A stretch of DNA of 64,000 bases from Variovorax sp. PBL-E5. GTDB taxonomy: Bacteria; Pseudomonadota; Gammaproteobacteria; Burkholderiales; Burkholderiaceae_C. Position numbers and translations under genes: made by a program. Positions 31,801-34,711 of this stretch are shown here, in pieces. Under the pieces are notes generated by a model, which was not told where the DNA came from, made no database searches, and saw nothing but the letters and a program-made list of their open reading frames with translations. How positions within the stretch are numbered: the first letter of the stretch is position 1; each line of letters begins with the position of its first letter. Where the stretch lies: assembly GCF_901827185.1 (NCBI RefSeq), contig NZ_LR594671.1:4738001-4802000 (forward strand), given 5' to 3'.

Positions 31801-34711
31801 GGTCGACCACCCAGTCGCTGGCGCGGATGACGTCGAGGTTGTGCTCGATCACGACCAGCGAATGCCCGGCATCGAGCAGCTTGCGCAGCGCGCGCATCAG
31901 CCGCGCGATGTCGTCGAAGTGCAGGCCGGTGGTCGGCTCGTCGAACAGGAACAGCGTGCCCTTGCGCGCCAGCGGCTGCCGGCTCGAGCTGCCGTTCTTC
32001 GCCGCCTCGGCGAGGAAGCCCGCGAGCTTGAGCCGCTGCGCCTCGCCGCCGCTGAGCGTGGGCACGGGCTGGCCGAGTTTGACGTAGTCGAGCCCGACAT
32101 CGACGATCGGCTGCAGCACGCGCAGCACCTCGCGGTCCATCTCGAACACCGCGGCGGCCTCGGCCACCGTGAGGTCGAGCACGTCGGCGACGTTGAAGCT
32201 GCGCGATGCGCGCTCGATCGTGACCTCGAGGATCTCGGGCCGGTAGCGCTTGCCGTCGCAGTCGGGGCAGCGCAGGTAGACGTCGGACAGGAACTGCATC
32301 TCGACGTGCTCGAAGCCCGAGCCGCCGCAGGTCGGGCAGCGGCCGTCGCCGCTGTTGAAGCTGAACTTCGAGGCCGTGTAGCCGCGCTGGCGCGAGAGCG
32401 CAGCGGTCGCGAAGATCTCGCGGATCGCATCCCAGGCGCCGACGTAGCTCGCGGGATTGGAACGCGCGGTCTTGCCGATCGGCGACTGGTCGACGAAGAC
32501 CACATCGCTCAGCAGATCGGCACCGAGCAGCCGGTCGTGCGCGCCCGGCGTTTCGGTGGCCTTGCCGAAATGGCGCATCAGCGCGGGCGCCAGCACATCC
32601 TGGATCAGGGTCGACTTGCCCGAACCGCTGACGCCGGTGATGCAGACCAGGCGCGCGAGCGGCAGCTCCACGGTCGCGTTCTGCAGGTTGTGCTCGCGCA
32701 CGCCTTCGAGGATCAGCCGCGGCGTGTTGTCGGTGACCATGCGGCGAAAGCCCATGCCGATCTGCTTGCGTCCGCCGAGGTACTGGCCGGTCAGCGTGTC
32801 GGCATCGCGCAGCGCATCGGTGCTGCCGTCGAACACGATCTGCCCGCCGCGCACGCCGGGCCCCGGGCCCATGTCGATCACGCGGTCGGCGGCCAGCATC
32901 ACGGCCGGGTCATGCTCGACCACCACCAGCGTGTTGCCTGCGTCGCGCAGGCGCAGCATGGCCTCGGTGATGCGGTTCATGTCGCGCGGATGCAGGCCGA
33001 TGCTGGGCTCGTCGAGCACGAACAGCGTGTTGACCAGCGAGGTGCCGAGCGCGGTCGTGAGGTTGATGCGCTGCACCTCGCCGCCGCTCAGCGTGCGGCT
33101 CTGGCGGTCGAGCGTGAGGTAGCCGATACCGACGTCGTGGAGGTAGCGCAGGCGCGTCGTGATCTCTTCGTGCAGCAGCTTGAGCGCTTGTTGCTCCCCA
33201 TGCCTCGCGCCTTCCCCCTCCGGGGAAAGGCTGGGATGGGGGCCGGCTGCGCTCGCTGCGGGCGCCTGCCCCCACCCCGGCCCTCCCCCGGAGGGGGAGG
33301 GAGAAATACCGAACCCATCGAAGAAGCGCCGCAGCCGCTCGATCGGCAACATCATCAGATCGTGCAGGCACAGCCCCGGCAGCGCCTCCAGCTGTTCGCG
33401 CGACCACTTCACGCCCACCGGCATGAAGCGCTTGCCCGGATCGAGCACCGCATCGGCATCCCGCTTGCTGCCGATGCGCCACAAGAGGCTCTCGAGCTTG
33501 AGCCGCGCACCCGCGCAGGTCGGGCACGGCGTGTAGCTGCGGTACTTGGACAAGAGCACGCGGATGTGCATCTTGTAGGCCTTGCTCTCCAGGTAGCCGA
33601 AGAAGCGGCGCACGCCATACCACTGCTGGTTCCACTTGCCCTTCCAGTTGGGCGAGCCCTCGATCACCCAGGCCTGCTGCTCGGGCGTGAGCTTGTTCCA
33701 GGGCGTGTCGCGGGGGATGCCGGCCGTTTCGGCGTGGCGCATCAGGTCGTCCTGCGCCTCTTTCCAGGCGGGCGTCTGGATGGTCTTGATGGCGCCGGCG
33801 CGCAGCGTGAGCTTGTCGTTGGGAATCACGAGGCCGAGGTCGACGCCGATCACGCGGCCGAAGCCGCGGCAGGTCTCGCAGGCGCCGACCGCGGAGTTGA
33901 AGGAGAACATCGACGGGATCGGGTCGGCGTAGCGGATGTCGCTCTCGGGGCAATGAAGGCCCGTGGAGAATTTCCAGATCTCGGATGATGCGCTTTCGTC
34001 AGCCGGCAAGGCATACACGGTGAGCCGCCCGCTGCCGCGCTTGAGCGCGACCTCGATCGCCTCGACCACGCGCGCGCGTTCGGCGCCGGCGATGCGGAAG
34101 CGATCGGCCACCACGTCGAGCACCTTGCGCGGCCCGGTCGGCGTCGCGATCTCGCGCTCGGCCTGCACGCGCGTGAAGCCGCTGGCCGACAGCCATTGCG
34201 TGACCTCGTCGGCCGTGGTGCTGGCCGGCAGCTCCACGGGAAACGTGACCACCACGCGCGGATCGCCGGCAGCGGACGCGCGCATCGCGAGCTCGGCATA
34301 GATCGAGTCCGGCGAATCGTGCCGCACCGGCAGCGCCGTCTCGCGGTCGAACAGCTGTGCCGCGCGCGCGAACAGCAGCTTGAGGTGGTCGTTGAGCTCG
34401 GTCATCGTGCCGACGGTCGAGCGCGACGAACGCACCGGATTGGTCTGGTCGATCGCGATGGCCGGCGGCACGCCTTCGACCTTGTCGACGGCCGGCTTGT
34501 CCATGCGGTCGAGGAACTGCCGCGCATAGGCCGAGAAGGTCTCGACATAGCGCCGCTGGCCTTCGGCGTAGAGCGTGTCGAACACCAGGCTGGACTTGCC
34601 CGAGCCGCTCGGGCCGGTGACCACGGTCATCTCGCCGGTGCGGATGTCGAGATCGAGGTTCTGGAGGTTGTGCTGACGTGCACCGCGAATCCGGATGGAG
34701 CCCTGTGTCAT
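28805..34711 (-). CDS. uvrA: Giant UvrA-like protein, two fused UvrA units
   Basis: 1968 residues, twice normal UvrA (about 940). It has four ABC ATPase sites instead of two: Walker A motifs near residues 33 (GPSGSGKSS), 690, 1060 and 1617 (each GVSGSGKST), and four signatures (LSGGEVQR near 541, then three LSGGEAQR). Each half has UvrA-type CxxC zinc sites, for example CPTCGGSGF with CPDCDGKRY in half one and CPGCDGAGV with CEVCHGARF in half two. The halves join near residues 1010-1030. Likely damage recognition or a UvrA2-like role; a standard uvrA is expected elsewhere in the genome. Residues about 470-501 are encoded by a palindromic repeat. ATG 34711 starts the first unit directly. Confidence 0.93.
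33211..33303. repeat. Palindromic repeat inserted in frame in uvrA
   Basis: Two imperfect inverted arms of about 33 bp, each with an inner CCCTCCGGGG-type hairpin, flank a loop of about 24 bp. Left arm starts CTTCCCCCTCC, right arm ends GGAGGGGGAGGGAG. Such GC-rich palindromes are typical intergenic repeats in betaproteobacteria. Here it lies inside the coding frame and is translated into a Gly/Pro/Ser-rich stretch ([14 protein letters not shown] and on) not found in UvrA. Confidence 0.8.

Follow-up and report, generated by a model that had tools for sequence, protein, structure and literature searches.

In Variovorax sp. PBL-E5, the gene specifying a tandem double UvrA carries an in-frame REP-type palindromic dimer, located at positions 33210 to 33301 (minus strand) of the analysed window, a DNA stretch of 64,000 nucleotides. 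Its assignment is based on inverted arms, a predicted fold, further copies in the genome, and its absence from 29 of 55 classed orthologues, a distribution indicating that the segment is an insertion and not the ancestral linker of the protein. The explanation we favor, with a probability of about 70%, is that the dimer entered a loop of variable length without breaking the reading frame and was kept because this loop apparently tolerates almost any in-frame peptide, and that the resulting linker versions were then recombined between species.

The palindromic dimer and its host gene

The host gene (28805 to 34711, minus strand) specifies a protein of 1968 amino acids consisting of two UvrA halves and recognized as UvrA by the NCBIfam models PRK00349 and TIGR00630, both over cut-off. 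A query from the N-terminal part matched 59 of the 61 genomes of the genus that were searched. Antisense to the gene, a frame of 1690 amino acids is open on the plus strand from 28916 to 33988, probably as a by-product of the high GC content.

The dimer crosses the open reading frame without a stop or a frameshift and specifies residues 471 to 501. The conserved cysteines 396 and 399 precede these residues, and the LSGGE motif at 541 follows them; both the uninterrupted frame and the position between the zinc-site region and the first LSGGE signature had been proposed in the original prediction. Alignment to the solved UvrA 2r6f left an unaligned gap between chain residues 446 and 469. In an AlphaFold model of residues 1 to 1003, which was weak (mean pLDDT 59.5, pTM 0.40), residues 468 to 500 appear as a coil (pLDDT 24-29) between helices at 457-466 and 501-526. 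Since residues 261 to 290 are equally low in this model (pLDDT 23-27), disorder of residues 468 to 500 is only a hint.

The dimer contains a 35-nt unit twice, in opposite orientations, with a short spacer between. The first unit (33209 to 33243, minus strand; G000:C1:4771209-4771243 in the genome) shows two mismatches to the unit pattern, and the second, inverted one (33268 to 33302, plus strand; G000:C1:4771268-4771302) shows none. The arms, 33210 to 33247 and 33264 to 33301, comprise 38 nt each and are 84% complementary, and inner palindromes are found near 33210-33230 and 33281-33301. The long inverted arms and inner hairpins described previously were thus recovered, as was the repeat itself, but its ends, given before as 33211 and 33303, were one or two bases off. 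For the region from 33205 to 33307, the predicted fold was better than those of all 200 dinucleotide shuffles, both as plus-strand DNA (z -3.88) and as coding-strand RNA (z -7.27). A search of Rfam with an open threshold gave seven matches, all to microRNA hairpin families and far below the gathering scores, which were discarded as chance hits of a GC-rich hairpin.

The dimer is open in all six reading frames, and so are 25.5% of its own shuffles. Among 52 genomic copies of the repeat, 17 are open in six frames, compared to 130 of 2000 random 92-mers from the window and 3.3% of shuffles. This openness may help tolerance, although the copies are mutually related and the comparison proves little. 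Regarding the inserted sequence, variable sites among seven related inserts were distributed 5/8/14 over the three codon positions, compared to 5/3/46 in the next 120 codons (Fisher p 0.0025). Third positions account for 46 of the 54 variable sites in the latter and for 14 of 27 in the inserts, a proportion that does not clearly exceed one third (p 0.06). The reading frame is thus kept, with weak constraint on the inserted peptide.

Copies of the repeat and further inserts

Searching the genome with the 35-nt pattern, allowing up to three mismatches, yielded 39 units, compared to none with the reversed pattern as control. Grouping by hand of units within about 200 bp defined 31 places, eight of which contain two pattern matches, a count that degenerate second units escape. 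BLASTN with a 131-base query against the same genome returned 51 matches at E values up to 10, a count that includes the self-match and hits to the same places in inverse orientation. The presence of other genomic copies, for which this search had been suggested, was thereby confirmed.

Frames were read across part of the 31 places and six proteins were scanned with profiles, the remaining places being assessed by codon score, if at all. At six of the 31 places a family profile spans the repeat: in UvrA, ClpV (TIGR03345), YgiQ (TIGR03904), the error-prone DNA polymerase DnaE2 (PRK05672), AceF (TIGR01348), and CbiB (TIGR00380). The peptides specified in UvrA, ClpV, YgiQ, DnaE2, and CbiB come from different frames of the repeat. 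At L008, the repeat is found where a molybdopterin-oxidoreductase part meets one that, by eye, resembles a cytochrome, with no profile across it; the same boundary is occupied in a relative (L195). For YgiQ, matches were obtained in 25 of 26 genomes and 18 of the 26 loci were parsed. The copy in PBL-E5 and that in G008 contain two units, one on each side of a peptide present without units in relatives, and L218 and L233 may retain a remnant. In the YgiQ genes L212 and L213, the two inverted units flank an ancestral peptide stretch and not a spacer of their own, a layout which suggests that repeat units can insert singly. For DnaE2, nine of 25 loci were parsed and a unit was seen in the PBL-E5 copy alone. 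Among 40 repeat places in four relatives, codon scores assigned the same coding frame to the two sides of five; upon reading, L176, L183, and L188 merely precede gene starts, L186 is doubtful, and the fifth, L195, is the boundary case mentioned with L008. As these calls mostly fall away, most repeat copies lie outside genes.

A second, unrelated dispersed repeat was noticed in the window as a 100-nt pair, 86% complementary, at 35995-36094, after a gene end, and at 59034-59133. A relative of the repeat at 35995-36094 is apparently present at the loop of the dimer in another genus (L266). In the double UvrA of other species, further inserts are located at about residues 149, 239, 1393, and 1584. 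Those at 149 and 239 are in frame and resemble the repeat at 35995-36094; in six of eight cases tested, the local score exceeded that of every one of 300 shuffles, the exceptions being L065 and L106. Within the gene of the window, positions 30506 to 30547 (minus strand, residues 1389 to 1402) are likely what is left of another, degraded repeat insert. This assignment is based on similarity in the alignment at about residue 1393, where the full inserts of L063, L067, L070, and L105 end in a similar GEGWGEGG stretch.

The genome also contains an ordinary single UvrA gene (G000:C1:5311667-5314585). No repeat insert was detected in it or in its counterparts from eight relatives, L207 being represented by its longest open piece only, which argues that the repeats accumulate in the tandem paralogue. 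An extra segment of the ordinary UvrA at profile position 607/608 was considered as a repeat and rejected as conserved non-repeat sequence. The assembly of G004 divides its ordinary single uvrA (L207) over two frames, which may be genuine or reflect a sequencing error.

Linker versions and their distribution among species

The state of the loop was classed in 55 orthologues of the genus: 29 are without a repeat ('none'), 13 carry the version of the window (flavour A), eight another version (flavour B), and five have other linkers. Outside these rows stand G007, with the gene on two contigs (L113/L114), G028 (L117) and G058 (L118) without a usable frame, G050, and the two unmatched genomes. The 'none' rows, the related strains lacking the insert that an alignment of orthologues was expected to reveal, mostly possess a FDGIESHGNSSTASEGDVQA-type linker of 22 residues. 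With 29 plain linkers and many genomic copies, the contrary case envisaged in the original prediction, a segment shared by every orthologue and without other copies, does not apply. The ancestral linker was replaced rather than cleanly interrupted, so that neither an empty site nor a target duplication was defined. Worn or half elements are present at the loop in L065, L082, L109, and L067, and L064 and L092 show indels within the insert that cancel out.

A motif test of the best 120 of 8000 scored database proteins classified 31 as repeat-like and 71 as plain, with 18 unparsed. Among those scored as plain, P0014 bears a different repeat-like peptide, PELVEG...SARTG, which we take to be a known repeat peptide. 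Within the bacterial family, 54 of 60 genomes matched, PBL-E5 included. Of the loci from other genera, 29 were read (24 further loci were not returned), and five contain repeat-type peptides at the loop as judged by eye (L264, L266, L273, L275, L280); those of L266 and L280 come from other, unrelated repeat families. A mostly intergenic repeat that jumped into the gene and was tolerated had been proposed from the sequence of the window. Dispersal, insertion, and tolerance hold, but a single jump in this genome appears unlikely, since the same loop has different repeats in many species and versions apparently move between species by recombination.

On the gene tree, built from proteins with FastTree and with stars on 27 of its 52 inner branches, the linker states require 22 changes, compared to a mean of 23.5 after shuffling; 40 of 200 shuffles were as low. 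The A inserts were compared to each other and to the 52 genomic copies, of which nine are from the PBL-E5 genome and 43, selected from the top matches to one A insert, are from four relatives, with the half elements L082 and L109 outside the comparison. For nine of the 11 inserts compared, identity to the closest uvrA insert is 0.88 to 0.93 but does not exceed 0.86 with any genomic copy, and these nine mutually close inserts stand among 'none' and B rows on the tree. The insert of the window is outside this set, with 0.842 identity to L072 and 0.83 to L002, a copy from its own genome.

Flanks were defined as 20 codons to the left and 10 to the right of the loop, and their divergence was expressed relative to the far part of the gene. 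In non-overlapping close pairs, the median was 2.61 for 11 pairs of different state and 0.85 for eight pairs of the same state (p 1.6e-4); the excess is small or absent in two of the 11 pairs (L085-L089, 1.0; L073-L112, 1.32). In all pairs with less than 6% gene-wide divergence, flanks differ by 11.7% in 25 pairs of different state and by 5.6% in 15 alike, the pairs in this comparison overlapping. L092 is the clearest mosaic. This A carrier and its sister L102 ('none') differ at 36 of 210 positions beside the loop and at 116 of 4101 elsewhere. Compared to L077, another A carrier, L092 shows differences at 17 of 210 and 327 of 4101 positions, the usual distance in both parts. In the control pair L087 and L102, both 'none', 22 of 210 positions differ beside the loop compared to 155 of 4101 (p 3.6e-5), which indicates that part of the flank excess is due to a region diverging faster anyway. 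In a linkage scan averaged over all pairs, the link between state and flank was small beyond about 10 codons. From the scattered states and from flank divergence tracking the state in close pairs, we infer that linker versions were swapped between species by short-tract homologous recombination, involving the loop and some tens of codons.

The course of events would then be as follows. The first copies would have been placed by the machinery that spreads the repeat, and the linker alternatives, none, flavour A, and flavour B, would subsequently have spread across species through homologous exchange of short tracts, with the conserved flanks as sites of recombination. Selection would hold the frame and the flanks, not the inserted sequence, and a gain of function is unnecessary for this explanation.

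A less probable history, but one deserving consideration, is that the loop is a hotspot at which repeats were inserted and lost repeatedly and independently in each species, with no exchange between species. Unrelated repeat types at the loop in different genera do require several independent insertions; the worn halves mentioned above and the nearly equal distances of the window's insert to a copy in its own genome and to the nearest uvrA insert are also in line with such a history. It is at odds with the nine A inserts, whose mutual identity exceeds that to genomic copies although they stand among 'none' and B rows, with the flanks, which in most close pairs change when the state does, and with the 22-residue linker type shared by the 'none' rows of both main tree parts, since excision would not bring this type back. 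Rather unlikely is a proposal going beyond the preferred recombination of tolerated inserts: the loop of the tandem UvrA could be a true recombining variable region in which unrelated palindromic families serve as interchangeable linkers, traded across species since loop variation is useful, with selfish repeats as a renewable supply of linkers. That the hairpin acts at the DNA or RNA level within the gene, for example as a site for pausing, cleavage, or supercoil control, is improbable: the hairpin predicted in the coding-strand RNA is very stable (z -7.27) and similar intergenic elements have been proposed as RNA elements (PMC3733652), but 29 of 55 orthologues are without the element and several others have only half of it or a remnant. 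A chance palindrome in a conserved UvrA loop, or an assembly error, can practically be dismissed; the gene of G007 is split at the insert between two contigs, so assemblies can break there, but the presence and absence among orthologues and the dispersed genomic copies already contradict both, and in G004, G038, G042, G043, and G052 the insert is inside multi-megabase contigs.

Relation to known palindromic repeats

The element belongs to the broad kind of coding (intragenic) palindromic repeats, being dispersed, in frame in a conserved gene, and absent from some orthologues. In-frame palindromes had been regarded in the original prediction as known mainly from Rickettsia, a view that has to be given up. 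REPs inside genes, many of them replication and repair genes, are described in PMC3733652, among them a uvrA of Thioalkalivibrio with two REP dimers, the two uvrA genes of O. terrae with a double insertion each, REPs or REP dimers within DnaE2 genes, and recB of two Xanthomonas sharing about the same insert site. The main text of that paper does not name Variovorax.

Like the repeat analysed here, these GTAG- or CGTC-tagged REPs are short palindromes, often inverted dimers and mostly intergenic, with some in frame, including in uvrA and DnaE2. They carry GTAG, in more than 90% of the members of most families, or CGTC at the unit end (PMC3733652), whereas the present unit has neither as a conserved end. 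In 27 of 30 units of the PBL-E5 genome that were parsed together with 14-nt flanks, GTAG occurred in none, CTAC in two, CGTC in two, and GACG in six, counted anywhere in unit or flanks. A further difference is the scatter of alternative linkers at one loop among many species, with a change of flanks accompanying that of the linker. The RPE of Rickettsia are palindromes of about 100-150 bp that are also translated in frame in unrelated genes (PMC10969869, PMC3733652), but they are described as encoding a conserved peptide (PMC10969869), in contrast to the different frames used here. REPINs, which are moved by RAYT transposases, likewise consist of two inverted REP units with a spacer, form a hairpin, and are dispersed (PMC3116915). 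In REPINs, units are paired, compared to two pattern matches at just eight of 31 places here, with degenerate second units missed, and the same REP is found beside the RAYT gene. The PBL-E5 genome gave one match to PF01797, a single Y1-type (IS200/RAYT-like) transposase gene (L119, G000:C1:1157296-1157625), and the surrounding 3330 bases contain no unit with up to three mismatches.

REP dimers inside uvrA genes are thus already known (PMC3733652). In the open-licence literature, no report of this repeat family or of exchange of UvrA linkers in this genus was found. New would be the untagged family, the several repeat families at one loop, and the apparent swapping of alleles. The loop constitutes a natural experiment on the conversion of selfish palindromes into protein sequence, with empty, full, half, and apparently swapped states and several families in dozens of species, and the ordinary UvrA of the same cells as a built-in control. 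The neutrality of such inserts thereby becomes testable, and coding repeats may, as suggested here, spread by recombination too and not by transposition alone.
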